Of a stretch of 64,000 bases of DNA, positions 1 to 57,268 are shown piece by piece (within the stretch, counting starts at the first letter, position 1; every line of letters starts with the position of its first letter). The notes below the pieces were generated by a model. The model made no database searches and was not told where the DNA came from. It saw only the letters and a program-made list of their open reading frames with translations. The stretch is from Cytobacillus massiliigabonensis (GTDB lineage: Bacteria > Bacillota > Bacilli > Bacillales > Cytobacillaceae). The translations under genes and the position numbers were made by a program. The stretch is from NCBI RefSeq assembly GCF_900199725.1, contig NZ_LT904903.1, positions 725,850 through 789,849 on the forward strand. Reading direction: 5' to 3'.

Positions 1-410
1 GTAAAAAGTCCTTCATCAAGGTTATGAAGTCTCGATCATGTCCGGATAGCTTGTAAAAAGTCCCTCATCAAGGTTATGAAAGTCCAATCATGTCCGGTTA
101 GCTTGTAAAGAGTTCTTTATCAAGGAAATGAAAGCCCGAATTCGGTGGGATAGCTTGAAAAGAGTCCATCATCAAGGTTATGAAGGCCAATTCATGTTCG
201 AATACTAGTAAAAAGTCCTTCATCAAGGTTATGAAGTCCCGATCATGTCCGGATAGCTTGTAAAAAGTCCTTCATCAAGGTTATGAAGTCTCGATCATGT
301 CCGGATAGCTTGTAAAAAGTCCTTTTATCAAGGTTATGAAGTCCCGATCATGTCCGGTTAGCCTGTAAAGAGTCTTTCATCAAGGGAATGAAAGCATGTA
401 GATCATCATA
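1..410. repeat. Left tandem array of 52-bp hairpin repeats (truncated by window edge)
   Basis: Eight head-to-tail units start at 1, 53, 105, 157, 208, 260, 312 and 365. Most are exactly 52 bp; one is 51 and one is 53, and the last is degenerate. Each carries the arms TTCAT and ATGAA around a short loop (TTCATCAAGGTTATGAA), then a TCCCGATCATGTCC segment and an A-rich joint. No unit reads as protein in a stable frame because 52 is not a multiple of 3. The array begins at base 1, so it continues outside the window. It lies beyond the 3' end of queT. The core resembles the large array at 52.9-57.3 kb. Confidence 0.93.
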
Positions 411-544
411 GCAAATAAAGAATAATCCATTCTAGTTTAGTATAAATTACCTCTTACACGTCTATTTTAAAAAAGAAAAATATCAAATTGTAAAACATTT
501 ACTCGATTGCTATCATATTAAGCTGCATGGTAATTATGCTTTAT

Positions 545-590
545 AAATAAAAAATAGCATGTGAAATTTTTTAAGATTTCACATGCTATA
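545..590 (-). terminator. Intrinsic terminator of queT
   Basis: A 14-bp perfect stem (554-567 with 576-589) and an 8-nt loop are followed on the minus strand by a T-rich run. It sits just past the queT stop codon. Confidence 0.85.
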
Positions 591-600
591 TAATGAGTTT

Positions 601-1086
601 TTATATTAATTTCTCAAATTTCACTCGTTTGTTTAATGCATACATTAATGGAATTCCTACGGCCATGACAACAAACTCACCAATGGCAGTTGTGACCCAA
701 GTAAATCCGAATGGCAGCCCGAAAGCTAAGTTAAGTTCAAGCGCGATGATCCACATCATAAAAGTAAAGACGACAGTATTTACAACCATTCGAACCCAGA
801 TGTTCTTAATATAACGGCAGCAAACAATCGTGATTAATAATGAAATTAACGAATGTCCGACTCCGAAAATAAGATCATATGCTTTCATTGGTGAAAATAA
901 CAAATTGGTCAAAAATACACCTAGAATCATTCCGTAAATATATTTCTTATTGAAGACCACTAGATGATTGAACATTTCGGATACCCGAAATTGGACTGCC
1001 GTAAACCCAAAGGGCTGGATGAGCATGGAAACAGCAATATATAAAGCTGCTAAAATTCCATTACCTACAATTGTTTTCACATTCAT
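601..1086 (-). CDS. queT: QueT-type ECF transporter substrate-binding membrane subunit (queuosine precursor uptake)
   Basis: A 161-residue, almost wholly hydrophobic protein with about five or six membrane segments. The N-terminal half has the family-typical run PFGFTAVQFRVSEMFNHL near residues 25-42, where QueT proteins carry the FRVSE motif. QueT proteins are S-components of energy-coupling-factor transporters that import a queuosine precursor such as preQ1 or preQ0. Its ECF ATPase and T subunits are not nearby, so it presumably shares the common module. The leader carries a preQ1-I riboswitch, which independently supports the assignment. The ATG follows the riboswitch's own CTAAGGAG segment. 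Length is normal for the family. Confidence 0.9.
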   Translation of the reverse strand: MNVKTIVGNGILAALYIAVSMLIQPFGFTAVQFRVSEMFNHLVVFNKKYIYGMILGVFLTNLLFSPMKAYDLIFGVGHSLISLLITIVCCRYIKNIWVRMVVNTVVFTFMMWIIALELNLAFGLPFGFTWVTTAIGEFVVMAVGIPLMYALNKRVKFEKLI

Positions 1087-1096
1087 AATCTATTCT

Positions 1097-1136
1097 CTCC
1101 TTAGTTTTTTTTCGTGGGAGGTTCTCGAACCACGTG
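1097..1136 (-). promoter_or_regulatory. preQ1-I riboswitch in front of queT
   Basis: Read on the minus strand, a CGTGG/CCACG P1 stem encloses a short loop (TTCGAGAACCTC) and is followed by an A-rich tail ending AAAACTAAGGAG. This is the compact preQ1 class I layout, in which the A-rich tail folds back on the loop. The tail contains the Shine-Dalgarno sequence of queT, so binding of preQ1 would be expected to hide the ribosome binding site and shut off translation of the importer. Confidence 0.88.
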
Positions 1137-1295
1137 AGCATCGCTCAAAGAATTTAATTTTACTGTAAAGGAACTAATTTGTCAATTTACTAAAATAGCA
1201 GGGTTTTTCTACAACTTCCTACAAAAGACCCTTTCGCTTGACATTTCAGTAAATAAGTATTATTTTAAATATAATGAAAATTCAATATGAGCGGA

Positions 1296-1522
1296 TGACT
1301 TTTGTGGGAGAGTGCATTGCTATAGGCCACCGAAGGGGCAAGTTCCGAAAAGACCCTTGGAACAAATCTCTCAGGTAGAAGAACCACAATTAGGACGCAT
1401 CTCTGGAGAGCTCGTATACATTTGTACGGCACCAAAGGGGACCCATTAATGGGATGAAACTCTCAGGTACAAAGGACAGGGAAGGGTAGAGATTACTACA
1501 CCTTTTCTGTCCTTTTTTATAG
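1296..1522 (+). promoter_or_regulatory. Tandem glycine riboswitch with terminator
   Basis: Two consecutive glycine aptamers are visible: the first has GTGGGAGAG, GCCACCGAAGGGGCAA and AATCTCTCAGGTA; the second has CTCTGGAGAG, GGCACCAAAGGGGAC and AAACTCTCAGGTACAAAGGACAGG. The last segment AAAGGACAG (about 1471-1479) can instead pair with CTGTCCTTTT (1507-1516) to form a terminator followed by T residues, so glycine binding to the second aptamer would favour readthrough. Known targets are gcv genes and amino-acid symporters. The next gene here is a short FbpB-like gene, which is unexpected. Confidence 0.92.
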
Positions 1523-1586
1523 TATAAGCGTTTAGTAATTAAATGAATTTTCCTTACGAATGCAGCATGAGGGAGGAGATGTAGAG

Positions 1587-1730
1587 ATGACTAGGAAAAG
1601 AATGACGTTATCCAATCTGATTAGAAATAATAAAGAAGAGCTTTTAAGGGATCGTGAACAGCTTGAGAAAATTGAAAAACGGATTGATGACAAATATATG
1701 AAAAGAAAAAAAGAAGCTAAGGCAATTTAG
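1587..1730 (+). CDS. fbpB: FbpB-like small basic protein
   Basis: A 47-residue basic protein starting MTRKRMTLSNLIRNNKEEL with a long Lys/Glu/Arg-rich helix after it. The layout matches the FbpB family (small basic proteins that in Bacillus subtilis belong to the iron-sparing response and work with the small RNA FsrA, proposed as RNA helpers). The ATG follows GGGAGGAGATGTAG, a strong ribosome binding site. It lies 65 bp beyond the glycine riboswitch terminator and upstream of the Mn2+ riboswitch. No convincing Fur box was seen. Family assignment is from sequence resemblance of a very short protein, so function is an inference. Confidence 0.72.
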   Translation: MTRKRMTLSNLIRNNKEELLRDREQLEKIEKRIDDKYMKRKKEAKAI

Positions 1731-1784
1731 GTAACTTCCTAACAATCATTCAATAAAAATTCAAACTCAAGAATAATAATTTTG

Positions 1785-1826
1785 TTGACAATATAACAGC
1801 AGGTTGATTACAATAATAGTAATCAA
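1785..1826 (+). promoter_or_regulatory. Promoter with 8-bp dyad ahead of the Mn2+ riboswitch
   Basis: TTGACA at 1785-1790 is followed after 18 bp by TACAAT (1809-1814). A perfect inverted repeat, TTGATTAC (1804-1811) N7 GTAATCAA (1819-1826), overlaps the -10 and the likely start site, the usual place for a repressor operator. The regulator is not identified; the sequence is not a clear Fur, PerR or MntR box. Confidence 0.5.
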
Positions 1827-1840
1827 TCAAATAGTAACTC

Positions 1841-1956
1841 CTAAAGGGGAGTAGCTTTTACAGCAAAGTCGTCATTTCAGAGTGATTAACTCTCGGCTTT
1901 GTTGGCAACATACACGTTGTTAGCAAGACCTTTACCAATTTTAGGTAAGGGTCTTT
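1841..1956 (+). promoter_or_regulatory. yybP-ykoY (Mn2+) riboswitch with first terminator
   Basis: The element has the family signature: AAAGGGGAGTAGCTTTTACA near the 5' end, then GCAAAGTCGTCATTTCAGAG and the paired CGGCTTTGTTGGCAACA. It is followed by AAGACCTTTACC (1925-1936) pairing with GGTAAGGGTCTTT (1943-1955) and a T run. This class senses Mn2+ and turns on exporters and TerC-type proteins. The gene downstream is a TerC/YkoY protein, as known elsewhere. Confidence 0.92.
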
Positions 1957-1968
1957 ATTGTTTTTTTA

Positions 1969-2000
1969 GGGCCTTTACCATTGTGGTAAAGGCTTTTTCT
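1969..2000 (+). terminator. Second hairpin/terminator in the ykoY leader
   Basis: GCCTTTACCA pairs perfectly with TGGTAAAGGC (1984-1993) around a 3-nt loop and is followed by TTTTT. It lies only 13 bp after the riboswitch's own terminator and shares its CCTTTACC arm, so it looks like a duplicated terminator. Confidence 0.75.
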
Positions 2001-2067
2001 GTTTTTGACAAAGCCTCTTCCACTTACTTATTTGATTAAATATCTATTTTGGAAGGATGATGTTTTC

Positions 2068-2841
2068 ATGGAACTAGCAATTTTACTAGAATACGGTGGA
2101 GTATTATTATTATTAATTGCGCTGGAGGGGCTTTTGGCAGCAGATAATGCATTGGTTTTAGCGATTATGGTTAAGCACCTGCCGGAAGAGGAACGAAGGA
2201 AAGCATTATTTTATGGGCTTGCAGGCGCATTTGTCTTTCGATTTGGTTCCTTATTTGCCATTTCATTCCTCGTTGATGTTTGGCAAGTTCAAGCGATCGG
2301 AGCGCTTTACTTGCTGTTTATTGCCGTCAATCATATTTTTAGAAAAGTAATAATCAAAAAAGGAGAAGAAAAGGCAACCATTGAGAAGGGAAAGAAAAAA
2401 GCAGGTTTTTGGATGACAGTTTTTAAGGTGGAATTAGCGGATATCGCCTTTGCGGTTGATTCTATACTTGCAGCAGTCGCATTAGCCATTGCTCTTCCAG
2501 ATTCAGGGCTGCCGAATATTGGCGGACTAGATGGAGGAAAGTTTCTAGTCATCTTCGCCGGAGGTTTCATTGGATTAATTATTATGCGCTACGCTGCAAA
2601 CTTTTTTGTTAAATTACTTCATGCAAGACCGGGCTTGGAAATTGCAGCTTTCCTCATCGTCGGATGGGTTGGGGTGAAATTATCGGTTTATACACTTTCA
2701 CACCCTGCGTTATCTGTGCTTCCAGAAGGCTTTGCAAAGTCGCCAGAATGGAAAATTACCTTCTATGCAGTATTAATTTTGATTGCGATTGGCGGCTGGT
2801 TTTTATCAAAGAAGAAAAAAGAAACTTCTGTTAAAGAATAA
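2068..2841 (+). CDS. ykoY: TerC/YkoY-family integral membrane protein
   Basis: A 257-residue protein with about seven membrane segments. TerC-family signatures are visible: EGLLAADNALVLAIMVKHLP near residues 14-33 and ELADIAFAVDSILAAVALA near residues 119-137; the paired acidic residues in these helices are thought to bind metal. YkoY-type proteins in B. subtilis have been linked to Mn2+ handling and metalation of secreted enzymes, which fits the Mn2+ riboswitch upstream. The ATG at 2068 has GGAAGG 11 bp before it; an in-frame TTG at 2005 lies in the terminator tail and is unlikely. A terminator follows. Confidence 0.9.
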   Translation: MELAILLEYGGVLLLLIALEGLLAADNALVLAIMVKHLPEEERRKALFYGLAGAFVFRFGSLFAISFLVDVWQVQAIGALYLLFIAVNHIFRKVIIKKGEEKATIEKGKKKAGFWMTVFKVELADIAFAVDSILAAVALAIALPDSGLPNIGGLDGGKFLVIFAGGFIGLIIMRYAANFFVKLLHARPGLEIAAFLIVGWVGVKLSVYTLSHPALSVLPEGFAKSPEWKITFYAVLILIAIGGWFLSKKKKETSVKE

Positions 2842-2880
2842 AATAGTTTTACAATGTAGCTCCTGATTTTCACAGCCTAG

Positions 2881-2937
2881 AAAAAACCGGAAAATGGTAT
2901 AATCAACTTATATAAAAATACCTTTTTCGGTTTTTTT
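2881..2937 (+). terminator. Terminator of ykoY
   Basis: ACCGGAAAATGGTAT pairs with ATACCTTTTTCGGT over about 14 positions, followed by a T run. Confidence 0.8.
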
Positions 2938-2960
2938 GAAAGATAAGAAAGCATAACTTT

Positions 2961-3245
2961 GGTGCTAGAGAATTGTCTAGCACAAGCGTCCTATCGCCTA
3001 TCAAACTTCAGGTACCCTCCCAACGATAAGTCATCAACGGTTCGCTCACGCTCACCGTGTTTCCTTTATCTCAGTTATTAAAAGGCGAGGCGACTGTTTA
3101 GCCCCGACAAGCATAAGATGGACTGAGGCGTGGCGTATTTTGCCACAGAGCAGTACATCTTATGACCTCGAGGGGCAAGGAGACGCAGCTAGATTACGGA
3201 GACCTTCTGCGTTTGTACGGCGATGATCAAGGCGCATCCGCTTTT
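2961..3245. repeat. Interspersed repeat-like element running into the exporter leader
   Basis: A stretch of non-coding DNA of a different character (richer in GC). It has an opening inverted repeat (GTGCTAG 2962-2968, CTAGCAC 2977-2983), an internal long hairpin (GCCCC plus GCATAAGATG at 3101-3120 with CATCTTATG plus GGGGC at 3156-3176), several GGCG/CGCC words, and a right end reading GGCGCATCCGCTTTT. From memory, similar GTCTAG...AGCGCC / GGCGC...CGCTTTT elements are scattered between genes of many Bacillus genomes. No transposase or clear target duplication is visible, so its mobility is an inference. Confidence 0.5.
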
Positions 3246-3278
3246 CTTATTAGTGAAATAGTTAGGCAGGGGAAAAAC

Positions 3279-5024
3279 ATGCAGGCATTAAAAGCGTTAT
3301 TGTCTTTTATGAGGCCCTATTGGCTGTTTGCTATATTAGGGCCATTTTTTATGTTTGTGGAAGTGGCAATGGATTTGATTCAGCCGACATTGATGCAGCA
3401 TATTATTGATGATGGAATAGCCAATAATAACACTGGTTATACAGTCAAAATGGGTCTTTTCATGGTTGGAGCAGCAATCATCGGTCTTGCGGGAGGAATA
3501 GGATGCTCGATATATAGCACGAGGGCTGCTGTTCATTTTGCTGCAGACATGAGAAGGGATGTTTTTCAAAGGATTGAGCAGTTTTCAAGCAGAAATATTG
3601 ATGCATTTGGCACAGGAAAGCTAATCACCATTGTCACCAATGATATTTCGTCTCTGCAAAGAGCGGTTATGATGACCCTGAAAATTTTTGTGAGAGGCCC
3701 GCTTCTTTTTATCGGCAGTATTATTATTGTCTTTTTTACAGCGCGGGAGCTATTTCCGATTCTTGCAGCTGTTGTTCCAATCCTAATCTTCGTTATTATT
3801 CTATTTACGAAGAAGTCAGGTGCCTTATTTAAAAAGGTACAGGAAGCCATTGATAAAGTAAATACGAGATTGCAAGAAAATCTGGCAGGGATGAGAGTAG
3901 TAAAAGCATTTGGCAGACAGGCATTTGAGAAGCAAAAGTTTGCCAATGCAAATAATGAGCTGACGAGGGTGAATATTTCTGCGGAGCAGTTAATAGCTTT
4001 ATTAATGCCGATTTTGCTCTTTTTAGTCAATATGGGAATCATTGCAGCTCTTTGGATGGGTGTCATAAAAGTAAATAATGGCTCCATTCAGGTAGGTGTC
4101 ATTCTCGCGTTTATTAACTATTTAAATATTATTTTGAATGGCTTAATGTCAAGCAGTAATGTGCTCATGCAAATTACGAGAGCCTTTCCATCTGCAGAAA
4201 GGGTTCAAGAGGTGCTTGGCATGGAATTAGACATTAAAGAGCCAAGTGATCCGTATGCTCCTGAAAAAATTGCCGGAGATGTTGAGTTCCGCCATGTGAG
4301 TTACAGCTATAGCAAAAATGGAGAATACGTATTAAAGAACATTTCATTCCAGGTGAGTAATGGACAAACATTGGGCATAATCGGGTCAACGGGAAGCGGC
4401 AAGTCCACGCTGACAAAGCTTATTCCAAGGCTTTATGATGTAGACAAAGGCAGTATTCTGATTGATGGAAAGGACATTAAAACATATAAGCTGCAGACTC
4501 TTCGAGAGGCAATCGGTGTTGTTTCGCAAAAAGCGATTTTATTTTCCGGAAGTATAGAAGAGAATTTGCATTATGGAAAGGAACATGCAAAAGCAGAAGA
4601 ATTAAATCAAGCAGCTGAGAATGCCTGTGCAAGAGAGTTTATAAAGAAACTTGATGATGGCTATAACCATTCATTAACACAAGGCGCAACGAATCTTTCG
4701 GGAGGGCAAAAACAAAGACTCTCTATTGCAAGGGCGTTTATTAGGAAGCCATCTATTTTGATTCTTGATGATTCTACCTCAGCAGTTGATGCAGTCTCGG
4801 AGTCTGCCATTCAGAGCGCATTAAAGCAAGAATATGCAGAGTCGACCAAGATCATTATTTCATCAAAAATCTCTTCAATAAAAGACGCAGATCAAATCAT
4901 TGTTATAGATGATGGAGAGATTGCAGGAATGGGCACCCATCAGGAGCTTCTTGCATCAAATATGATTTATCGGGAAATTTTTGTAACGCAAGGAGGGGTG
5001 CTTAGTGAGTATGCAAAAAGGTAG
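3279..5024 (+). CDS. Heterodimeric ABC exporter, half-transporter with degenerate nucleotide site
   Basis: A 581-residue half-transporter: six membrane helices (about 1-300) then an ATPase domain. Visible motifs: Walker A GSTGSGKST, signature LSGGQ, Walker B LILDDSTSAVD. The catalytic Glu after Walker B is Asp, and the switch histidine is replaced (IIISSKISSI instead of the usual AHRLST), so its own site should be non-catalytic. That is typical for one partner of heterodimers such as YfiB/YfiC, BmrC/BmrD or TM287/288. The downstream gene, overlapping by 20 bp, is the partner. The ATG at 3279 follows GGCAGGGGAAAA; upstream in-frame ATG codons from 3162 fall inside the repeat-like element. Substrate unknown, probably a drug or lipid. 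Confidence 0.9.
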   Translation: MQALKALLSFMRPYWLFAILGPFFMFVEVAMDLIQPTLMQHIIDDGIANNNTGYTVKMGLFMVGAAIIGLAGGIGCSIYSTRAAVHFAADMRRDVFQRIEQFSSRNIDAFGTGKLITIVTNDISSLQRAVMMTLKIFVRGPLLFIGSIIIVFFTARELFPILAAVVPILIFVIILFTKKSGALFKKVQEAIDKVNTRLQENLAGMRVVKAFGRQAFEKQKFANANNELTRVNISAEQLIALLMPILLFLVNMGIIAALWMGVIKVNNGSIQVGVILAFINYLNIILNGLMSSSNVLMQITRAFPSAERVQEVLGMELDIKEPSDPYAPEKIAGDVEFRHVSYSYSKNGEYVLKNISFQVSNGQTLGIIGSTGSGKSTLTKLIPRLYDVDKGSILIDGKDIKTYKLQTLREAIGVVSQKAILFSGSIEENLHYGKEHAKAEELNQAAENACAREFIKKLDDGYNHSLTQGATNLSGGQKQRLSIARAFIRKPSILILDDSTSAVDAVSESAIQSALKQEYAESTKIIISSKISSIKDADQIIVIDDGEIAGMGTHQELLASNMIYREIFVTQGGVLSEYAKR

Positions 5025-6828
5025 CACTGCTCAAACAGAGAAATCGATTCGGTTTGGCAATGGTCCTGGAAGAATGAGCGGGCCAATCGTAAAGCCGAAG
5101 GACAGAAAAGGAACAATTAAAAGAATCTGGCAATATATGAAGAAACAAAAAACAGCGATGATTCTCGCGATAACGATGGTTCTCATTTCAACTGTGCTCG
5201 GGCTGCTGGGACCGCTGCTAATCGGGTTTATTATTGATCATTATATTATGCCAAAAGATATTAGCGGAACAATTCGTATGGCGGGACTGCTTGGAGTTGT
5301 TTATTTAGCTGCATCTCTGTTTACATGGCTCCAAACGTACATAATGGTCAATGTTTCTTTAAAAACGATTCAAATGCTAAGGCAGGATTTATTTAATCAC
5401 TTTCAGGCACTTTCATTGAAGTTTTTCGATAAGCGGGCTTACGGGGAATTAATGAGCCGGGTGACCAATGATATCGAGAATTTGAATAGTGCGTTGAGCC
5501 AAAGTGTCATTCAGATTTTTTCCTCTGTGCTGACTGTTGCTGGTGTGATGATTGCGATGCTGACGCTTAATTGGATGCTTGCACTTGTAACGCTGCTAGT
5601 CATTCCGCTGATGTTTTTTGCAACGAATAAAATTATTACATTCAGCAGCAGTAATTTTATTAAAAGGCAGCGAGATCTTGGGGATATGAATGGGACGGTA
5701 GAGGAATCAATCTCCGGTATTGAAGTCATTACTTTATTCGGGAAAGAAAAGGAAGTCTACAATAAATTTTCAGATGCAAATGAAAGATTGCGAAATTCTG
5801 CTATGATGGCTGATATTTCTTCGGGATTTCTAGGACCTGTCAATAACTTTATAAACAATCTAGGGCTAGGAATCGTAATTGCTGCAGGTGCATTGATGGC
5901 GATAAGCGGGATGACAACTATTGGGGTTCTTGCGTCATTTGTAACGTTTTCTCGGCAATTTTATAGACCGATCAATCAAATGTCTAACCTAATTAATACG
6001 TTTCAATCGGCAATTGCAGGTGCTGAACGCGTATTTGAAATAATGGATGAAATTCCTGATCTTAAGGACAGTGAACAGGCGATTGAAGCTGGCTCATTTA
6101 AAGGAGATGTAGCATTTTCAGGTGTTTCCTTTGGCTATGGAGGTCAAAAAAGTATTCTAAAAAATATCAGTCTTGAGGCTAAAGCTGGTCAAACAATTGC
6201 GCTAGTCGGTCCAACTGGCTCAGGCAAAACAACAATCATTAATCTTTTGTCACGTTTTTATGATGTGGAAACTGGTGAAATTTGCATTGATGGCAGAAAT
6301 ATTAAAGACTACAAAATTCAGTCCTTGCGTTCAAAGATAGGAATTGTCCTGCAGGATACGTATTTATTCTCAGGACCGATTATGGAAAATATCCGTTATG
6401 GAAGGCTTGATGCTGCCGATGAAGAAGTGATTCACGCGGCAAAGCTAGCGTCAGCACATGGGTTTATTAAACATTTGCCCGCTCGCTATGAAACTAGAAT
6501 CGAATCTGGCGGAACAAATTTAAGCCAGGGGCAAAAGCAGCTAATAGCCATCGCAAGAGCGATTTTAGCAGATTCAGATATTTTAATATTGGATGAGGCG
6601 ACATCAAGTATTGATACAAGGACAGAAATTGAAATTCAAAAAGGCATTAGTGCGCTCACGAAAGGAAAAACTAGCTTCATCATCGCCCATCGGTTAAAAA
6701 CGGTAGAAAATGCAGATATGATACTCGTTATCCGTGATGGGGAGATTGTGGAGAAGGGAAATCACGAGGAACTATTAGCCCTGCACGGATTTTATTATGA
6801 TATGTACAAGCTTCAGTTTGAAAACTAA
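5005..6828 (+). CDS. Heterodimeric ABC exporter, catalytic half-transporter
   Basis: A 607-residue partner of the preceding gene, starting at GTG 5005 six bases after AGGAGGGG and overlapping the upstream stop. After a basic N-terminal tail of about 40 residues come six membrane helices and an ATPase domain with Walker A GPTGSGKTT, signature LSQGQ, Walker B LILDEATSSID with the catalytic Glu, and the switch His in IIAHRLKTV. LSQGQ in this subunit faces the degenerate Walker site of the first subunit, so the pair has one full and one degenerate ATP site. Lengths resemble YfiB/YfiC of B. subtilis. A terminator follows. Confidence 0.9.
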   Translation: MSMQKGSTAQTEKSIRFGNGPGRMSGPIVKPKDRKGTIKRIWQYMKKQKTAMILAITMVLISTVLGLLGPLLIGFIIDHYIMPKDISGTIRMAGLLGVVYLAASLFTWLQTYIMVNVSLKTIQMLRQDLFNHFQALSLKFFDKRAYGELMSRVTNDIENLNSALSQSVIQIFSSVLTVAGVMIAMLTLNWMLALVTLLVIPLMFFATNKIITFSSSNFIKRQRDLGDMNGTVEESISGIEVITLFGKEKEVYNKFSDANERLRNSAMMADISSGFLGPVNNFINNLGLGIVIAAGALMAISGMTTIGVLASFVTFSRQFYRPINQMSNLINTFQSAIAGAERVFEIMDEIPDLKDSEQAIEAGSFKGDVAFSGVSFGYGGQKSILKNISLEAKAGQTIALVGPTGSGKTTIINLLSRFYDVETGEICIDGRNIKDYKIQSLRSKIGIVLQDTYLFSGPIMENIRYGRLDAADEEVIHAAKLASAHGFIKHLPARYETRIESGGTNLSQGQKQLIAIARAILADSDILILDEATSSIDTRTEIEIQKGISALTKGKTSFIIAHRLKTVENADMILVIRDGEIVEKGNHEELLALHGFYYDMYKLQFEN

Positions 6829-6837
6829 AGAATAGAG

Positions 6838-6870
6838 GGACTGTTCTTCAATGAAGAGCGGTCCTTTTTG
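6838..6870 (+). terminator. Terminator of the ABC exporter operon
   Basis: A 12-bp stem with one or two wobble pairs (GGACTGTTCTTC / GAAGAGCGGTCC) and a 3-nt loop, followed by TTTTT. Confidence 0.8.
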
Positions 6871-6990
6871 GGGATTGACCGGAAAATTAGTGAATTTGAC
6901 CGAAAAAATGAAAATCTGACCGGAATATGAAAGGAAGTGACCGAATAAATCAAAATCTGACTGAAATAAGGGTGAAAGTGATGAAATAAA
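6871..6990. repeat. Short degenerate tandem repeat with ~20.5-bp period (TGACCGAAAA)
   Basis: TGACCGGAA/TGACCGAAA-like words start at about 6876, 6897, 6917, 6938 and 6958, with a weaker copy near 6978. Spacing alternates 21, 20, 21, 20, about two helical turns. The region is non-coding and lies between the convergent ends of the exporter operon and citR. Confidence 0.65.
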
Positions 6991-7026
6991 ACAGAAAAAA
7001 GAAATATAGGTTCATATTTGCCTGAC

Positions 7027-7905
7027 CTAAAGCCGATAATTCATTAAAAACCTCATAAATTCCTTTTGCATGGAATGATTATATTTCATAATCGCATAAG
7101 TATGGGCTTCTGGCAGTGTAATAGTACTGCAGGGAACTTCCAGCAGCCACCCTTCTATTAATTCCCGTCTGACTGTTGAAACTGGCAAGAAAGAAACGCC
7201 CAATCCTTCAACGATAAATCTTTTAGTAATATGAATTTGAGAGACCTTCATCATTTTCACGGATGGGAACTTGTATTTTACTTCACGGCTTAGAATCTCC
7301 CAGTAGACGGGATGATTATCTGTTAGCAGATAATTTTTCAACAGCACTTCTTCTTCATCCAATGGTGGAGCGGATTCCGCATCCAATCCATCATGCTGGG
7401 CAATTAATTTCACTTCATCCTTAAACAAAACTTCGCAATATAATTCTGGATTCGTGCTATGAAGACAGGAAAGCCCAATATCAATTTCGTCATTTAGCAC
7501 AGCTTTTTCAATATCTAGGGATTCAAGAACCATTACTGAAATCTCTACATGAGGATGGATAGTCATATATTTTTTTAGAACAAACGGAAGGATGGTATCA
7601 GCGATCAATGGAGAGATAGCGAGCGATAGCTTTGAAGTATACCCCTGACTAAAGGATTGCAAATCCTCTATCCCCCTTTGGTATATCTCTATCAATTTTT
7701 CTGCATGTGGAATGTATCTCCTGCCCTCCTCTGTTAGTTTCATTTTTCTGCCTTCTCTTTCAAATAGCTGAACACCTAATTCTTTCTCGAGATTTTGAAT
7801 ATGAACGGTTACAGAAGGCTGTGAAATATATAATAATTCTGCTGTTCTTCTAAAATTGCCATTTTTAGCGGCAACTAAAAATGTATTGATCCAGCTAAAC
7901 TCCAA
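7027..7905 (-). CDS. citR: LysR-family regulator, CitR-like
   Basis: A 292-residue LysR-type regulator: winged helix-turn-helix in the first 60 residues (NFRRTAELLYISQPSVTVHI, then LEKELGVQLFEREGRKMKLT), followed by the two-lobed effector domain. It is divergent from a citA-type citrate synthase across a 114-bp AT-rich gap, the same arrangement as B. subtilis citR/citA, where CitR (291 residues) represses citA. Assignment rests on family, length and neighbourhood. The ATG is preceded by a good AAGGAGGG site. Confidence 0.85.
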   Translation of the reverse strand: MEFSWINTFLVAAKNGNFRRTAELLYISQPSVTVHIQNLEKELGVQLFEREGRKMKLTEEGRRYIPHAEKLIEIYQRGIEDLQSFSQGYTSKLSLAISPLIADTILPFVLKKYMTIHPHVEISVMVLESLDIEKAVLNDEIDIGLSCLHSTNPELYCEVLFKDEVKLIAQHDGLDAESAPPLDEEEVLLKNYLLTDNHPVYWEILSREVKYKFPSVKMMKVSQIHITKRFIVEGLGVSFLPVSTVRRELIEGWLLEVPCSTITLPEAHTYAIMKYNHSMQKEFMRFLMNYRL

Positions 7906-8019
7906 CCGCTAACCCTCCTTTTGATTAAAAAAATAAATCAAAATATTTAAAAACATTTAATTTTTTTAATTATATTTATTTTATATAATTTACCTAAATA
8001 AGGAAAGGAGAAATGAAAA

Positions 8020-9689: not shown

Positions 9690-9700
9690 TAATAATATTG

Positions 9701-15322: not shown

Positions 15323-15474
15323 CAAAAACCCCTTCTTTAAACAAGAAGAGGTTTGGCTTTCACGCTTACGGCTCTTCTTATCTTCAAGCATGACGCTTCT
15401 GGAATTAGCACAGTACATTCTAGTCTGTTGCTGAGGTATCAATGGGCCAGTCCCTCCACCTCTCTGGATAAGAA
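15323..15474 (-). promoter_or_regulatory. SAM-I (S-box) riboswitch with terminator
   Basis: On the minus strand the aptamer opens with TTCTTATCCAGAGAGGTGG, continues with GGGACTGGCCC, GATACCTCAGCAAC and GTGCTAATTCC, and closes P1 with GATAAGAA (P1 pairs 15467-15474 with 15375-15382). Downstream, CCTCTTCTT can pair either with the 3' P1 strand (AAGAAGAG, antiterminator) or with AAGAAGGGG followed by TTTTT (terminator, 15324-15351). This is the standard SAM-dependent off-switch. A further AAGGGGTTTTTG/CAAAAACCCCTT-type hairpin lies between the terminator and the ribosome binding site. Confidence 0.93.
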
Positions 15475-44815: not shown

Positions 44816-44821
44816 AATAAA

Positions 44822-48570: not shown

Positions 48571-48575
48571 AAAAA

Positions 48576-49229: not shown

Positions 49230-49241
49230 TTGTTATGAACG

Positions 49242-49275
49242 AAAAACTGCTAAACTTGCTTTGGCAGTTTTTTTG
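49242..49275 (+). terminator. Terminator of the second DinB-like gene
   Basis: AAACTGC / GGCAGTTT stem with T run. Confidence 0.8.
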
Positions 49276-49287
49276 TTAAGAAAAAAG

Positions 49288-49313
49288 TGTCACAAAAATG
49301 TGTCCTATGCGAC
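49288..49313 (+). promoter_or_regulatory. ECF-sigma-type promoter of the sigma operon
   Basis: TGTCAC (49288-49293), 16 bp, CGAC (49310-49313). This resembles the TGAAAC/TGTAAC N16-17 CGTC/CGAC promoters read by Bacillus ECF sigma factors such as SigX and SigW, and it sits 37 bp before the sigma gene, as expected for autoregulation. Confidence 0.7.
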
Positions 49314-49349
49314 TAATCGGTATGACAGTTAAAAGTAGGTGAGTGAGAT

Positions 49350-49880: not shown

Positions 49881-50766
49881 CCAATGGAAGCAGCTCCAGC
49901 AATTTAAACCTCCAAGTCATGAAAAAGATCAAATAAAGAAAAGAATTTGGCAAACGATTCAAGAGGAACATGCACAAAAATCACCTAACATGTTTCTTCC
50001 GCTGAAAGAAATAATAACGGCTTGTCTTCTTGTTCTAATTAGTGGAAGCTTCTTTTGGCTGATTTTTCAGGAAAGTGGAGAGCCGCAAACAGCTGCAAAT
50101 CCCTCTATCGATTATGAGAAATTTAGTTGGGCGCTTGAGGATGTCTATAGCAAGAAAGCAGACGAAGGTTTGGAGCTTTTTCAAGAAAAGCAATCAGTCC
50201 CCGTCGGAACAGTGCAGGAAGTAACCGAAGAAGAGATGAAAACTATCACGGAACAATTGCCAATGTTTGTTGAGGAGGAGCTGGAACAATTCCCCTATCC
50301 AACAACGATGTATATTGAGCATGTGAAAATGATGGATACGGCACTAAGATACCATTTTTTCATTCCGAATAAGGATAAATGGATTTACTTCACTTTTGAT
50401 TATCCGAAGCTTGAATATGCAGAAATTTTTCATGCGATGTCAACGCTGGCATTTGAGGGCAAGAAGCCATACAGTCATGATGAGCAGCTATATGTCAACC
50501 ACGGTTATGGAAGCATGCCATTTCCAGTTGGATTGAAGCCATACTCAATTACCTCATATAAGGAAATCTATTATTGGGATGAAGGGTCTAATAAGGCGTA
50601 TTCGAAATATATAGAAACCATTCTTGCATCCGGCTGGAAAAAGACAGCATCAGATGGACAAAGACATACATTCGTTTCATTAGATGGGAATGTAGAGATA
50701 AGTATCAGATGGGCAGGAAGAGAATTAATTTATGAGTTTGATTATCCGAATAGAGAAGAAGAATAG
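49861..50766 (+). CDS. Putative membrane anti-sigma factor
   Basis: About 301 residues: cytoplasmic N-terminus (LSKHLDDQWKQLQQFKPPSH), one membrane helix (about 53-72), and a large outside domain. The single-pass layout and translational coupling to the sigma gene are those of RsiX-type anti-sigma factors. No ZAS zinc motif (HxxxCxxC) is present. TTG 49861 follows AGGAGGTGGGCGAA; GTG 49852 is part of that site. Its signal is unknown. Confidence 0.78.
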   Translation: MSKHLDDQWKQLQQFKPPSHEKDQIKKRIWQTIQEEHAQKSPNMFLPLKEIITACLLVLISGSFFWLIFQESGEPQTAANPSIDYEKFSWALEDVYSKKADEGLELFQEKQSVPVGTVQEVTEEEMKTITEQLPMFVEEELEQFPYPTTMYIEHVKMMDTALRYHFFIPNKDKWIYFTFDYPKLEYAEIFHAMSTLAFEGKKPYSHDEQLYVNHGYGSMPFPVGLKPYSITSYKEIYYWDEGSNKAYSKYIETILASGWKKTASDGQRHTFVSLDGNVEISIRWAGRELIYEFDYPNREEE

Positions 50767-50782
50767 TGTAAAAGCATGAACG

Positions 50783-50821
50783 AATAAATGCGTTTCTACA
50801 AATCGTAGAGACGCATTTATA
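50783..50821 (+). terminator. Terminator of the sigma/anti-sigma operon
   Basis: ATAAATGCGTTTCTAC / GTAGAGACGCATTTAT stem with a 5-nt loop. Confidence 0.82.
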
Positions 50822-50894
50822 ATGAGGAAGGAAGAACAGGAATTTTCAGACATTTTGTCGAATTAGTTTACTAATTAATTTTATGAGGTGGACT

Positions 50895-52025
50895 ATGGAA
50901 TTTGTAATAAATAATGAATGTTTTAACAAAGCAATTACAGATGTCAGTAAAGCAATTTCACTAAAAACAACTTTATCTATTTTGTCAGGTATTAAAATCG
51001 TTGCCAATAGTAATTGCTTAATTCTTGTCGGAAGCAATTCTGATATTGTTATTGAAAAAATTATTCCTTTAATGATGGATGATGAAAAAGTATTGGAAGT
51101 TTATGATACAGGCAGTGTTGTAGTATCGGCAAAATATTTAAGTGAAATTGCCAGAAAGCTGCCTAAAGATATCCATTTAAAAGTAAACGAAAAACAATTA
51201 GTTACCATTCAGTCTGATGAGATTATTACCACCCTAAACGGCTTTCATTCTGAAGAGTATCCAAGACTTCCTCAAATTGATGAGACTACATGTATTAAAA
51301 TCTCAAGCATGGAATTAATAGAAATAATCAATCAGACGTCATTTGCAGTTTCTAAAAGTGAGTCGAGACCCGTCCTTACAGGAGTAAATTTGTCATTCAA
51401 TGAAAAACATCTTTCCTGTGCAGCAACTAATTCCCAACGGTTAGCATTTAGAGAAATTCCTATAAGGACAGATGTAAATGGTTCCTTCATTGTTCCGAGT
51501 TCTAGCCTAAACGAGTTAACCAAGCTATTTAAAAATGAAGCAGGTCCAATACATATTTATATAACAGATAATTATATCGTGTTTAAGTCAAATACTATCT
51601 CACTTTTTTCAAGGCTCATCGAAGGGAACTATCCTAACGTTTCAGGCTTATTGCCAAAGGAATCAAAGACAATAATCATTATGGACACTAATCAGCTATT
51701 GAAAGGGATTGATAGAGCCTGTCTTTTTGCAAATGAATGGAAAAATAACAATGTAAATCTTGAAATCATAGATGGCTCTATAATGAAAATTTCTTCTAAC
51801 TCAACAGAAATAGGGAAAATAGAAGAAACACAAACGATTAAGATGATTAAGGGAGAGACAGATTTAAGTATCTCGCTTGATGGAAGCTTTTTCATTGATG
51901 CTTTAAAGGCAATAAAAGAAGAAGAGATCAGAATAAGCTTTGGCGGTCCGATGAGACCAGTTTTAATTGAGCCTGTAAATAATCCTTTTCATCTTCATCT
52001 GATTTCACCAGTGCGGACTTATTAA
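50895..52025 (+). CDS. DNA polymerase III beta clamp paralogue
   Basis: A 376-residue three-domain sliding clamp. It follows the DnaN pattern: SKAISLKTTLSILSGIKIVA, GSVVVSAKYLSEIARKLPKD, GFHSEEYPRLPQI, TSFAVSKSESRPVLTGVNLS, ATNSQRLAFREIPI, LFSRLIEGNYPNVSGLLPKE, and a C-terminal MRPVLIEPVNNPFHLHLISP ending PVRTY, the place where DnaN ends M-PMR. The dnaA-dnaN-recF origin neighbourhood is absent, so this is an additional copy. ATG at 50895 follows GAGGTGGACT. No repair polymerase gene is adjacent. Confidence 0.9.
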   Translation: MEFVINNECFNKAITDVSKAISLKTTLSILSGIKIVANSNCLILVGSNSDIVIEKIIPLMMDDEKVLEVYDTGSVVVSAKYLSEIARKLPKDIHLKVNEKQLVTIQSDEIITTLNGFHSEEYPRLPQIDETTCIKISSMELIEIINQTSFAVSKSESRPVLTGVNLSFNEKHLSCAATNSQRLAFREIPIRTDVNGSFIVPSSSLNELTKLFKNEAGPIHIYITDNYIVFKSNTISLFSRLIEGNYPNVSGLLPKESKTIIIMDTNQLLKGIDRACLFANEWKNNNVNLEIIDGSIMKISSNSTEIGKIEETQTIKMIKGETDLSISLDGSFFIDALKAIKEEEIRISFGGPMRPVLIEPVNNPFHLHLISPVRTY

Positions 52026-52087
52026 GTTAAATGGGCACTGATTAATTGAAATAGTAAAGTGATAAATTTGACTAGGGAGTGATAAAG

Positions 52088-52900
52088 ATGACAGTAGTTT
52101 TGAATGAAAACTTAGCCCATCGAATTGAGCAATCAGAAATAGATGCTCTACATTCTAGATTAAGTGCGGTGCAAGGGATTTTTAATAATCCGATGGATGT
52201 TCAAATTGAGAAATTTGGAAATGCAACCGCGTTTACTGTGAAAATGATACCTGGACCATCTTTCAATACGGTGAAGGGACTAGCTGATGGGGATGAGAGG
52301 TATATTGATGATATCATAGATTTCTATAATAAAAGGAATATTCCAGCGCGGTTTGAACTAACCCCTGCAAATGTATCTCCGGAGTTATTAACCATCCTTT
52401 CGGAAAAGGGATTTTACCAAAAGGATTTTCATTCAAGTTTATATACATCAGCTTTGCCTGATCAGGAACCTGAAGCAACGGATATAGCTATTCGTAGGCT
52501 AAATAAAAATGAGTTTGATCTTTTCGCTGACATTTATATAAAGAGCTTTGGTCTCCCAGATTTCGTTAAGGAAGGAATCGCTCAAAACAATGCTGTTCTT
52601 TATGGGTTTGATAATTGGACCTTTTATCTTGCTGCGGTTGAAGATGAGCCTGCAGGCATTGGGGTCATTTTTGTGCAGGATAAAATTTCTACTCTCGCAG
52701 CAGCGGCAACTATTCCGCAATTTAGAAATAAAGGAGTGCATCAGGCTCTAATTCATAAATGCCTTCAACATGCAGCTTTTCAAACGTGCGATCTAGCTGT
52801 TGGTCAAGCAAAGTATGCAAGCATTAGCCAAAATAATATGGAAAGAGCCGGAATGAAGATAGCATATACTAAAGCAATATGGGTGCAGAGAGAATCGTAG
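52088..52900 (+). CDS. GNAT-family N-acetyltransferase
   Basis: About 270 residues. The C-terminal half has the acetyltransferase fold: IAIRRLNKNEFDLFADIYIK, then FYLAAVEDEPAGIGVIFVQD, TLAAAATIPQFRNKGVHQAL (the acetyl-CoA loop, Gln/Arg-x-x-Gly-x-Gly-like), AVGQAKYASISQNNMERAGM. The N-terminal half is an unassigned domain. ATG at 52088 follows AGGGAGTGATAAAG. The large repeat array begins about 30 bp after its stop. Confidence 0.8.
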   Translation: MTVVLNENLAHRIEQSEIDALHSRLSAVQGIFNNPMDVQIEKFGNATAFTVKMIPGPSFNTVKGLADGDERYIDDIIDFYNKRNIPARFELTPANVSPELLTILSEKGFYQKDFHSSLYTSALPDQEPEATDIAIRRLNKNEFDLFADIYIKSFGLPDFVKEGIAQNNAVLYGFDNWTFYLAAVEDEPAGIGVIFVQDKISTLAAAATIPQFRNKGVHQALIHKCLQHAAFQTCDLAVGQAKYASISQNNMERAGMKIAYTKAIWVQRES

Positions 52901-52929
52901 TTTGGGTATGAAACTTGAAATCTAAGAAG

Positions 52930-55900
52930 AACGAAAAAATTGTAGCCATGAAGGGTTCATGGAGCCCGAAATGATAGGTTAACAAAAAACTGGTAGCCAT
53001 GGAGGGGTCATGGAGACCGAAGTGATGAGTGAACGATAAAAACGGTAGCCATGAAGGGTTCATGAATCCCGAAATGATGAGTGAACGAAAAAACCGGTAG
53101 CCATGAAGGGGTCATGGAGCCCGAAATGATGAGTGAACGAAAAAACTGGTAGCCATGAAGGGTTCATGAAGCCCGAAATGATGAGTGAACATAAAAACTG
53201 GTAGCCATGAAGGGTTCATGAAGCCCGAAATGATGAGTGAACATAAAAACTGGTAGCCATGAAGCGGTCATGAATCCCGAAATGATGAGTGAACGAAAAA
53301 AACGGTAGCCATGAAGCGGTCATGAATCCCGAAATGATGAGTGAACGAAAAAACCGGTAGCCATGAAGCGGTCATGAAGCCCGAAATGATGAGTGAACGA
53401 TAAAAACGGTAGCCATGAAGGGTTCATGGAGCCCGAAATGATGAGTGAACATAAAAACTGGTAGCCATGAAGGGTTCATGAATCCCGAAATGATGAGTGA
53501 ACGAAAAAACTGGTAGCCATGAAGGGTTCATGAAGCCCGAAATGATGAGTGAACATAAAAACTGGTAGCCATGAAGGGTTCATGAATCCCGAAATGATGA
53601 GTGAACGAAAAAACCGGTAGCCATGAAGCGCTCATGAATCCCGAAATGATGAGTGAACGAAAAAACTGGTAGCCATGAAGGGTTCATGAATCCCGAAATG
53701 ATGAGTGAACGATAAAAACGGTAGCCATGAAGGGTTCATGGAGCCCGAAATGATGAGTGAACGAAAAAACCGGTAGCCATGAAGCGGTTATGAATCCCGA
53801 AATGATAGGTGAACAGAAAAACTGGTAGCCATGAAGGGTTCATGAATCCCGAAATGATGAGTGAACGATAAAAACGGTAGCCATGAAGGGTTCATGGAGC
53901 CCGAAATGATGAGTGAACATAAAAACTGGTAGCCATGAAGGGTTCATGAATCCCGAAATGATGAGTGAACGAAAAAACTGGTAGCCATGAAGGGTTCATG
54001 AAGCCCGAAATGATGAGTGAACATAAAAACTGGTAGCCATGAAGGGTTCATGAATCCCGAAATGATGAGTGAACGAAAAAACCGGTAGCCATGAAGCGCT
54101 CATGAATCCCGAAATGATGAGTGAACGAAAAAACTGGTAGCCATGAAGGGTTCATGAATCCCGAAATGATGAGTGAACGATAAAAACGGTAGCCATGAAG
54201 GGTTCATGGAGCCCGAAATGATGAGTGAACGAAAAAACCGGTAGCCATGAAGCGGTTATGAATCCCGAAATGATAGGTGAACAGAAAAACTGGTAGCCAT
54301 GAAGGGTTCATGAATCCCGAAATGATGAGTGAACGATAAAAACGGTAGCCATGAAGGGTTCATGGAGCCCGAAATGATGAGTGAACATAAAAACTGGTAG
54401 CCATGAAGGGTTCATGAATCCCGAAATGATGAGTGAACGAAAAAACTGGTAGCCATGAAGGGTTCATGAAGCCCGAAATGATGAGTGAACATAAAAACTG
54501 GTAGCCATGAAGGGTTCATGAATCCCGAAATGATGAGTGAACGAAAAAACCGGTAGCCATGAAGCGCTCATGAATCCCGAAATGATGAGTGAACGAAAAA
54601 ACTGGTAGCCATGAAGGGTTCATGAATCCCGAAATGATGAGTGAACGATAAAAACGGTAGCCATGAAGGGTTCATGGAGCCCGAAATGATGAGTGAACGA
54701 AAAAACCGGTAGCCATGAAGCGGTTATGAATCCCGAAATGATAGGTGAACAGAAAAACTGGTAGCCATGAAGGGTTCATGAATCCCGAAATGATGAGTGA
54801 ACGATAAAAACGGTAGCCATGAAGGGTTCATGGAGCCCGAAATGATGAGTGAACATAAAAACTGGTAGCCATGAAGGGTTCATGAATCCCGAAATGATGA
54901 GTGAACGAAAAAACTGGTAGCCATGAAGGGTTCATGAAGCCCGAAATGATGAGTGAACATAAAAACTGGTAGCCATGAAGGGTTCATGAATCCCGAAATG
55001 ATGAGTGAACGAAAAAACCGGTAGCCATGAAGCGCTCATGAATCCCGAAATGATGAGTGAACGAAAAAACTGGTAGCCATGAAGGGTTCATGAATCCCGA
55101 AATGATGAGTGAACGATAAAAACGGTAGCCATGAAGGGTTCATGGAGCCCGAAATGATGAGTGAACGAAAAAACCGGTAGCCATGAAGCGGTTATGAATC
55201 CCGAAATGATAGGTGAACAGAAAAACTGGTAGCCATGAAGGGTTCATGAATCCCGAAATGATGAGTGAACGATAAAAACGGTAGCCATGAAGGGTTCATG
55301 GAGCCCGAAATGATGAGTGAACATAAAAACTGGTAGCCATGAAGGGTTCATGAATCCCGAAATGATGAGTGAACGAAAAAACTGGTAGCCATGAAGGGTT
55401 CATGAAGCCCGAAATGATGAGTGAACATAAAAACTGGTAGCCATGAAGGGTTCATGAATCCCGAAATGATGAGTGAACGAAAAAACCGGTAGCCATGAAG
55501 CGCTCATGAATCCCGAAATGATGAGTGAACGAAAAAACTGGTAGCCATGAAGGGTTCATGAATCCCGAAATGATGAGTGAACGATAAAAACGGTAGCCAT
55601 GAAGGGTTCATGGAGCCCGAAATGATGAGTGAACGAAAAAACCGGTAGCCATGAAGCGGTTATGAATCCCGAAATGATAGGTGAACAGAAAAACTGGTAG
55701 CCATGAAGGGTTCATGAATCCCGAAATGATGAGTGAACGATAAAAACGGTAGCCATGAAGGGTTCATGGAGCCCGAAATGATGAGTGAACATAAAAACTG
55801 GTAGCCATGAAGGGTTCATGAATCCCGAAATGATGAGTGAACGAAAAAACTGGTAGCCATGAAGGGTTCATGAAGCCCGAAATGATGAGTGAACATAAAA

Positions 55901-57268
55901 ACTGGTAGCCATGAAGGGTTCATGAATCCCGAAATGATGAGTGAACGAAAAAACCGGTAGCCATGAAGCGCTCATGAATCCCGAAATGATGAGTGAACGA
56001 AAAAACTGGTAGCCATGAAGGGTTCATGAATCCCGAAATGATGAGTGAACGATAAAAACGGTAGCCATGAAGGGTTCATGGAGCCCGAAATGATGAGTGA
56101 ACGAAAAAACCGGTAGCCATGAAGCGGTTATGAATCCCGAAATGATAGGTGAACAGAAAAACTGGTAGCCATGAAGGGTTCATGAATCCCGAAATGATGA
56201 GTGAACGATAAAAACGGTAGCCATGAAGGGTTCATGGAGCCCGAAATGATGAGTGAACATAAAAACTGGTAGCCATGAAGGGTTCATGAATCCCGAAATG
56301 ATGAGTGAACGAAAAAACTGGTAGCCATGAAGGGTTCATGAAGCCCGAAATGATGAGTGAACATAAAAACTGGTAGCCATGAAGGGTTCATGAATCCCGA
56401 AATGATGAGTGAACGAAAAAACCGGTAGCCATGAAGCGCTCATGAATCCCGAAATGATGAGTGAACGAAAAAACTGGTAGCCATGAAGGGTTCATGAATC
56501 CCGAAATGATGAGTGAACGATAAAAACGGTAGCCATGAAGGGTTCATGGAGCCCGAAATGATGAGTGAACGAAAAAACCGGTAGCCATGAAGCGGTTATG
56601 AATCCCGAAATGATAGGTGAACAGAAAAACTGGTAGCCATGAAGGGTTCATGAATCCCGAAATGATGAGTGAACGATAAAAACGGTAGCCATGAAGGGTT
56701 CATGGAGCCCGAAATGATGAGTGAACATAAAAACTGGTAGCCATGAAGGGTTCATGAATCCCGAAATGATGAGTGAACGAAAAAACTGGTAGCCATGAAG
56801 GGTTCATGAAGCCCGAAATGATGAGTGAACATAAAAACTGGTAGCCATGAAGGGTTCATGAATCCCGAAATGATGAGTGAACGAAAAAACCGGTAGCCAT
56901 GAAGCGCTCATGAATCCCGAAATGATGAGTGAACGAAAAAACTGGTAGCCATGAAGGGTTCATGAATCCCGAAATGATGAGTGAACGATAAAAACGGTAG
57001 CCATGAAGGGTTCATGGAGCCCGAAATGATGAGTGAACGAAAAAACCGGTAGCCATGAAGCGGTTATGAATCCCGAAATGATAGGTGAACAGAAAAACTG
57101 GTAGCCATGAAGGGTTCATGAATCCCGAAATGATGAGTGAACGATAAAAACGGTAGCCATGAAGGGTTCATGGAGCCCGAAATGATGAGTGAACATAAAA
57201 ACTGGTAGCCATGAAGGGTTCATGAATCCCGAAATGATGAGTGAACGAAAAAACTGGTAGCCATGAAT
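52930..57268. repeat. Satellite-like array of about 83 tandem 52-bp hairpin units
   Basis: Head-to-tail units of 52 bp with consensus GGTAGCCATGAAGGGTTCAT then GAATCCCGAAATGATGAGTG then AACGAAAAAACT. The GTAGCCATG word first occurs at 52942 and last at 57257. Units differ mainly at a few positions (GAATCC/GAAGCC/GGAGCC; GGGTT/GCGGT/GCGCT; A-rich joint). From 53399 on, nine-unit blocks of 468 bp repeat. The last unit stops after GTAGCCATGAA. The array fills the gap between the convergent acetyltransferase and chemoreceptor genes. No reading frame survives more than about three units. Confidence 0.97.
53399..57268. repeat. Higher-order 468-bp repeat (9 x 52 bp), eight copies plus a partial
   Basis: The diagnostic unit GCGGTTATGAATCC recurs at 53784, 54252, 54720, 55188, 55656, 56124, 56592 and 57060, exactly 468 bp apart. 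Blocks start at 53399, 53867, 54335, 54803, 55271, 55739, 56207, 56675 and (partial) 57143. Copies compared by eye look identical, whereas the nine or so units before 53399 differ from each other. Confidence 0.95.

Follow-up and report, generated by a model that had tools for sequence, protein, structure and literature searches.

The 64,000-nucleotide stretch of Cytobacillus massiliigabonensis DNA analysed here (contig NZ_LT904903.1, positions 725,850 to 789,849; hereafter the window) contains two arrays of tandemly repeated 52-bp units, designated array 1 (window positions 1–410, plus strand) and array 2 (52929–57267, plus strand). Both belong to a published class of 52-nt tandem repeats of Bacillus (Subirana and Messeguer, IJMS 2021; PMC8161180). 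New here are a single dyad plan that extends over several sequence types, the helical phasing of base composition, placement at gene 3′ ends, the near loss of one array at an orthologous site and the presence of a higher-order repeat. The constant length, the shared architecture, the complementarity of the arms, the average phasing tied to the dyad, the 3′-end placement and the turnover between species are directly established. With not quite even confidence, we favour the explanation that the arrays act as double-stranded DNA, as scaffolds of five-turn dyads for a putative architectural protein.

Anatomy of the two arrays

Array 1 is reported by Tandem Repeats Finder (TRF) at 1–392, with a period of 52, 7.5 copies and 80% matches. 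Its seven to eight units of 51–53 bp are spaced 52, 52, 52, 51, 52, 53 and 52 bp apart when cut at a fixed word, and each follows the plan GTCC with CTTCAT-n7-ATGAAG and then TCCCGA (type B). Array 1 is not complete: it forms the right-hand end of a gapped locus. The window opens directly 3′ of a run of 965 N, and pieces of the same type are found further upstream, at approximately 1.2 and 4 kb, separated by N runs of 2333 and 965 bases. N runs abut or split satellite arrays at L069, L072, L080 and L173, one possibility being that the assembly broke there.

Array 2 is much more regular. TRF reports it at 52929–57267 with periods of 104, 156 and 468, all multiples of 52, and 92–98% matches. Its units (type A) are built from GTAG, CCATGA-n5-TCATG and CCCGAA, and 84 unit starts are obtained by cutting at a fixed word; 82 of the 83 intervals between them measure 52 bp and the other 51 bp. 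The 52-bp period first proposed for the two arrays is thus confirmed both by TRF and by fixed-word cutting. Fourteen unit variants can be distinguished and, from the tenth unit, these follow one another in the order DEBCFAGHA, eight times over, with two units more. This higher-order repeat of nine 52-bp units (468 bp; 53410–57267, plus strand, the start being computed by hand from the unit list) makes up most of array 2, has 98% matches at the TRF period of 468 and went unmentioned in the initial annotation. In eukaryotic alpha-satellite DNA, blocks of diverged monomers are repeated as a larger unit, and array 2 likewise consists of diverged monomers within a larger repeated block. Array 2 differs from alpha-satellite DNA in being bacterial, in its 52-bp monomer and kilobase scale, and in having no known role as a centromere.

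Neither array shows the constant repeats and unique spacers of a CRISPR locus, as the whole unit is repeated in both, the joint included. The arrays are also non-coding. They lie within gaps between open reading frames (ORFs) of at least 90 amino acids, and 52 bp is not a multiple of three.

A genome-wide family with a shared unit plan

DNA queries with each unit matched further arrays on contigs C6, C7 and C8. To describe these systematically, a sample of 80 evenly spread stretches of 20 kb was taken from the three contigs (1.6 Mb of 5.23 Mb, including 26,919 bases of N). The sample contains 47 arrays with a score of at least 100, of which 26 have a period of 51, 52 or 104 and none a period of 42–50 or 53–103. 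Some of the 26 have fewer than four copies, and together they represent about 23 loci, three being second pieces or copies at a locus already counted. By simple proportion, the whole genome would hold some 75–85 array loci.

Several sequence types occur at this one length in the genome, labelled A to E for the purposes of this analysis. Types A, B and D are built on one plan: GT, a 19-bp dyad with differing but complementary arms (CCATGA/TCATGG in type A, CTTCAT/ATGAAG in type B and CCAAT/ATTGG in type D), with a CCCGAA-like motif lying some 11 bp from the centre of the dyad. When the motif was scored from a list drawn up after the units had been seen, it lay at +11 from the dyad centre in 17 of 23 rows from the three types, 14 of them reading (C/A)CCGA(A/T). 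In the remaining six rows it lay at +10 (three rows), +12, +13 and +16, the last of these rows being miscentred. When 50 units, picked by hand from 20 arrays, are aligned without gaps, conservation reaches at least 90% at G4, T5 and C28. Type C (GTCCGAA/TTCGGAC) and type E are also present and have not been fitted to this plan. One array, at L076:14242-14756, has a 103-bp unit that consists of two very different halves of 51/52 bp, each with a CTTCAT..ATGAAG dyad.

The initial annotation assigned the two arrays to a genome-wide repeat family with conserved architecture and suggested looking for further arrays and aligning the units. With further arrays present (26 in the sample) and a plan common to three types, the family is borne out, and both parts of the refuting condition attached to it were decided in its favour. 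Compared as a bare pair, the units of arrays 1 and 2 are at chance level (best circular identity 21/52, p = 0.70), whereas architecture beyond chance emerges once intermediate arrays are included. In dyad register, arrays 1 and 2 have TCCCGA in common (p = 0.006); L188 (type A) and L201 (type B), which form the strongest bridge, are identical at 22 of the 33 bases outside the dyad despite their different arms (p = 0.0002); and an in-register run with p < 0.05 is seen in 17 of 21 cross-type comparisons. It is these intermediate arrays, rather than the bare pair, that connect arrays 1 and 2 as a family. Two of the parts originally listed as shared do not survive: the arms are ATGAA..TTCAT in array 2, whereas array 1 has TTCAT..ATGAA, and it is the CCCGAA-like motif that is general, not an ATG following CCCGA.

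The dyad arms

Complementarity of the arms was analysed in the same 50 core units, chosen by hand from 81 with no more than four per array. Arm cells are paired in 79.7% of cases against 54.5% in shuffles, a percentage raised by leaving out rows visibly out of register and arrays L195 and L212. Cells differing on both sides from the commonest pair number 101 against 49.3 ± 5.5 in shuffles and covariation in the arms scores 0.642, a value that sliding the partners lowers to 0.261 or less, although, as types A, B and D amount to few clades, such counts overstate the number of events. Consensus units were obtained for 34 of 36 arrays tried (two gave none), and over these 34 the longest stems exceed those of shuffles with a combined p of 3e-7, the units not all being independent; taken singly, nine of the 34 reach p < 0.05.

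Within arrays, the arms differ at 191 of 2076 positions, compared with 610 of 5037 for other positions, 154 of 1029 for the loop and 95 of 1062 for the motif, so that the arms vary less than other positions. Events within the arms comprise 3 two-sided changes, 20 G.U, 14 A.C and 30 others, and the wobble mismatches show no strand bias (20 G.U versus 14 A.C, p = 0.39). The arms are therefore mildly kept as an inverted repeat, and nothing indicates that either strand is important as RNA.

Helical phasing of A/T content

A helical periodicity of A/T content is in itself already known from bacterial DNA. When the 52-bp unit is treated as a circle, its A/T content has one strong average peak, at the fifth harmonic, corresponding to 10.4 bp. 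Mean A/T power at this harmonic is 2.72 in 30 arrays of the C. massiliigabonensis genome (z about 9 against shuffles), a set that excludes the 103-bp unit and five copies that were duplicated or split, and that includes two typed consensus units added to it. Intergenic 52-mers of the sample (n = 3893) have a power of 1.17, and none of 20,000 bootstraps reached 2.72. In 20 arrays of other species, selected by us from those listed and including Cohnella, Paenibacillus and Paucisalibacillus, the power is 2.95 (z 9.3). An independent test is provided by the 27 consensus repeats in Table 1 of the published description of the class (PMC8161180), for which the power is 2.96 (z 10.1), or 2.86 (z 8.2) for the 20 that remain when seven related or redundant repeats are left out. 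The suggestion that the unit length approximates five helical turns thus holds on average. It is a tendency and not a rule: among ten harmonics, the fifth ranks first in 18 of 30 own, 6 of 20 other-species and 16 of 27 published units, against 11% of random 52-mers.

The phase of the A/T rhythm is tied to the dyad centre (R = 0.90 in 21 arrays, with one outlier, L173), the centre being G/C-rich and the arms A/T-rich. A period scan over whole units peaks at 10.2 bp. Taken without the rest of the unit, the variable joint also tends towards the dyad-tied phase (vector p = 0.0013, R p = 0.049). Eleven repeats of 40–42 or 61 bp have a power of 3.05 at 10.2 bp, a value raised by the 20-bp period itself.

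Two further rhythms were seen in passing. In the genome's own 52-bp consensus units, purine content has a maximum at the sixth harmonic (z 6.9). Interspersed elements of 122–126 bp and 153–154 bp occur in tandem pairs with a helical A/T rhythm at L152, L159, L185, L195, L198, L203, L210 and L228, and also in the sister genome G014.

Placement at gene ends

Gene context was assessed from ORF calls that were N-safe, of at least 90 amino acids and independent of curated annotation. Sampled arrays and those found by similarity together give 31 places; with four at edges and one with N set aside, 26 have clear neighbours. Of these, 11 lie between convergent genes, 15 between codirectional genes and none between divergent genes, whereas the 630 array-free gaps comprise 83 convergent, 411 codirectional and 136 divergent (convergent excess p = 0.0004, divergent deficit p = 0.005). 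Array 2 does lie between convergent genes, as originally described, and so does array 1. Array orientation agrees with that of the upstream gene in 18 of 22 cases. An apparent replication-orientation signal was rejected: judged by GC skew, 19 of 22 oriented arrays are aligned with the leading strand (p = 0.0009 against one half), but so are 76% of 1394 genes, and against that rate p = 0.33. Also rejected was the idea that arrays bracket genes as cassettes, since several large ORFs between array pieces (L069, L072, L080, L079) proved to be N runs read through.

Turnover between species

The sister genome G014 is syntenic with C. massiliigabonensis on both sides of array 2, at 86–90% DNA identity. 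Where 6.1 kb is found here (array 2 plus a chemotaxis gene), G014 has about 170 bp, comprising what by eye is roughly one decayed unit together with a similar terminator hairpin; the remnant scores only E = 0.27 over the contig in a profile search but is located at the exact array-2 site. The comparison covered two arrays from each genome. In place of array L182, G014 has a 154-bp repeat pair, and the G014 arrays 129213 and 325751 are missing at the corresponding C. massiliigabonensis sites, where gene content differs too. Not all loci are so labile: one with two neighbouring arrays is common to G006, G012, G025, G032 and G035 (L269, L270, L275, L276 and L277), and another is common to G028 and G011. 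Sequences of the published class are described as species-specific; a type A query matches 14 of 36 genomes of the genus, that of C. massiliigabonensis included.

What might the arrays do?

The case for an element acting at the level of double-stranded DNA rests on the unit length of five turns, the phased composition, the dyad, the indifference to arm sequence and the absence of strand bias. Each 52-bp unit would present five helical turns and one dyad and, because A/T-rich and G/C-rich stretches tend to alternate once per turn, all the dyads of an array would lie on one face of the helix. An architectural protein, concerned with nucleoid structure or topology and guided less by exact sequence than by groove shape and dyad symmetry, may then attach to every unit and so form a row along the array where genes end, whilst unequal exchange would shift copy number in blocks, of which the nine-unit repeat is an example. 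Reading of shape and symmetry would allow the length to be held whilst arm sequences change. Binding by a putative nucleoid or segregation protein, as the initial annotation tentatively proposed, would fit the data. A bolder version, which we consider rather doubtful, is that the 52-bp satellites across the Bacillaceae and Paenibacillaceae constitute a shape code of five-turn units with a dyad-centred A/T rhythm, in which a putative architectural protein reads groove shape instead of letters and wraps or polymerises with one protein unit per 52 bp. The arrays would in that case be a bacterial counterpart of phased nucleosomal satellites.

A number of observations weigh against the scaffold explanation. 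We know of no protein that binds these arrays. Array 2 itself is only weakly phased (A/T power 0.67), and the period scan of the variable joint on its own peaks at 9.0–9.4 bp, not 10.2. Nor is helical phasing unique to the 52-bp class, since ten tandem elements of 112–154 bp (about three families, from the same sample) have an A/T power of 2.47 at 10.2 bp, compared with 0.98 ± 0.31 in shuffles. In the arms, two of five pair measures, the number of pairs with two-sided change (7 versus 6.8) and that of further pair types (14 versus 14.4), do not exceed the values in shuffles, the covariation counts are inflated by the small number of clades, and two-sided changes within arrays are outnumbered by plain mismatch events by 30 to 3. 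Finally, array 2 cannot be indispensable, given that the sister species has almost no array at that site.

The main rival is that the arrays are a selfish or neutral satellite, expanding by slippage or unequal recombination wherever this is harmless and owing its length and phasing to the amplification machinery or to the general helical periodicity of non-coding DNA. We regard this as somewhat unlikely to be the explanation, although the two can hold together. Turnover is fast, with array 2 and L182 missing or reduced to about one unit in G014 and two G014 arrays missing here; the nine-unit repeat points to expansion in blocks; arrays avoid divergent gaps, where promoters lie; and other tandem elements are helically phased as well. 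Neutrality alone, however, leaves unexplained why one length should be found over many sequences and genera, why the arms should be complementary and why the phase should be anchored to the dyad, and the array locus common to five species also speaks against it. It is improbable that the arrays function instead as transcribed RNA, their hairpins serving as a sponge, a processing signal or a 3′-end stabiliser. In favour of this, RNA-seq of B. coagulans is reported to show 52-nt arrays (PMC8625621), array 2 is situated between the gene on its left and the next terminator found, and a 260-nt piece of its plus strand folds better than shuffles (z −3.46). Against this, 260-nt folds of the array 2 minus strand and of both array 1 strands are no better than shuffles (z −0.99, 0.19 and −0.10), and there is no asymmetry between G.U and A.C. 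A terminator lies between stop codon and array at 19 of 41 array-facing gene ends, close to the rate at which the same finder detects one within 110 bp of control genes (66 of 157), implying that many arrays lie beyond the terminator. Among three Rfam 15 matches in the window, none is at array 1 or 2 at the gathering score, and an RNA function would leave the five helical turns unexplained. The initial suggestion that the arrays act as an RNA structure therefore finds little support.

Repetitive extragenic palindromic (REP) sequences and bacterial interspersed mosaic elements (BIMEs), with their REP-associated tyrosine transposases (RAYTs), are short hairpins with a GTAG foot that are found at gene 3′ ends and in convergent gaps. 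The 52-bp arrays resemble them in all these respects but differ in being direct tandem repeats of fixed length, with no dispersed units in the sample and no match to a Y1 transposase. As a special case of action at the DNA level, arrays at convergent gene ends might be putative BIME-like sites at which gyrase or another topoisomerase relieves supercoils. The convergent excess (11 of 26 against 83 of 630) and the phased A/T content are consistent with this, yet 15 of the 26 arrays lie between codirectional genes, and we consider it very improbable. Least probable, and disfavoured here, is an element that a Y1 (REP-associated) transposase would move as a single-strand hairpin. The GTAG before the hairpin of type A prompted this idea, and in the chosen units conservation of the G and T at about centre −12 is 90% or more. 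A search for Y1_Tnp (PF01797), the HUH transposase of the RAYT type, gave no match in the C. massiliigabonensis genome, though the same search was positive in 5 of 14 control genomes, and none in G006, G011, G025 or G035, four genomes with type A matches. Y1 matches are present in other genomes that type A matches, G004 and G028 among them. Units hardly occur outside arrays, either. In the 1.6-Mb sample, profiles match 108 type A, 195 type B and 36 type D units inside arrays and 2, 3 and 5 outside, compared with 2, 4 and 5 in a reversed-sequence control. RAYT/REP mobilisation was accordingly rejected. So too was a plasmid or phage origin, 1501 bases of array 2 being without match in plasmid and phage collections (searched in distant mode with the BLAST low-complexity filter on).

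The DNA-level scaffold remains our preferred reading, and its five-turn unit, which combines a dyad with phased A/T content, offers a physical answer that is open to test by a half-turn change in spacing. Were a protein to be found, it would represent a new kind of bacterial chromosome-organising system, one tolerant of changes in sequence but not in length.

Relationship to published repeat classes

Arrays 1 and 2 are regular, have at least four repeats and fall within the 51–53 nt of the published class. They also have in common with it constant length with variable sequence, a non-coding location, the presence of many arrays and several types per genome, and short signals that often occur with their reverse in one unit, as in the dyads described here. 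The class was published as being without known function, a nucleoid protein or RNA being suggested (PMC8161180; see also PMC8625621 and PMC6749651). By eye, the B. coagulans repeat 8_52_18 and the B. litoralis repeat 42_52_9 resemble type B (as in L214), and the B. oceanisediminis repeat 79_52_5 and the B. alkalitelluris repeat 71_52_7 resemble type C (PMC8161180). The long array singled out in that paper has 37 repeats, compared with the 84 unit starts of array 2. Although RNA folding is discussed in the paper, its text lacks the words hairpin, palindrom and periodic, and helix appears once, for the 20–21-nt class. The phasing thus appears to be new relative to that paper, although the same authors' J Bacteriol 2020 paper may hold related remarks. 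Judged by title, our literature searches listed no further paper on the 52-nt class beyond those of Subirana and Messeguer; the J Bacteriol 2020 paper is cited by PMC12392509.

The 20–21-nt tandem repeats of Bacillus described by the same authors have their like in C. massiliigabonensis, where repeats of 20–21 and 40–41 bp also occur. That class differs from the 52-bp class in having two helical turns rather than five, a TTTGCAA-like motif and shorter units. Arrays of 40–41 bp at L190:6799-8351, L204:1801-1946 and L228:1724-2098 look like dimers of 20–21-bp units with a TTTGCAA-like core, one having 38.8 copies at 99%. Within the window, a 20/41-bp tandem repeat with TTGACCGGAAAAATGAAAAT-like units at 6875–6981 perhaps belongs here as well.

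Neighbouring genes and other observations

To the left of array 2, an ORF for a GNAT-type acetyltransferase (52079–52900, plus strand) has its 3′ end facing the array across a 29-bp gap in which no terminator was found. On the right, the 3′ end of a methyl-accepting chemotaxis protein ORF (57345–58880, minus strand), absent from the syntenic site in G014, faces the array. A terminator-like hairpin with T-rich tails on both strands (57293–57329) lies just to the right of array 2 and is like the one at the sister-species site. Facing array 1 is the 3′ end of a 161-amino acid ORF (601–1086, minus strand) with a PreQ1 riboswitch upstream. Rfam identifies this riboswitch at 1095–1139, a glycine riboswitch at 1295–1396 and a SAM riboswitch at 15375–15474.

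Elsewhere in the genome, exact tandem duplications of 2292 and 2188 bp at L070:1905-6489 and L071:4122-8498 include a satellite array in the duplicated unit. They carry desK-desR-like genes and a comFA-like helicase (names from Pfam hits) and reflect either recent recombination or an assembly error. At L079:6318-10910, a match to a Mutator-family transposase adjoins a type B array, with an array fragment about 5 kb away, an arrangement suggestive of an array interrupted by an insertion; this region contains N. Finally, a 93–95-bp element consisting of two 41-bp repeats (GGCGAATA...TTGTCCAATA) is found at L188:13953-14045, L189:17963-18057 and L203:1790-1882 and is possibly regulatory.

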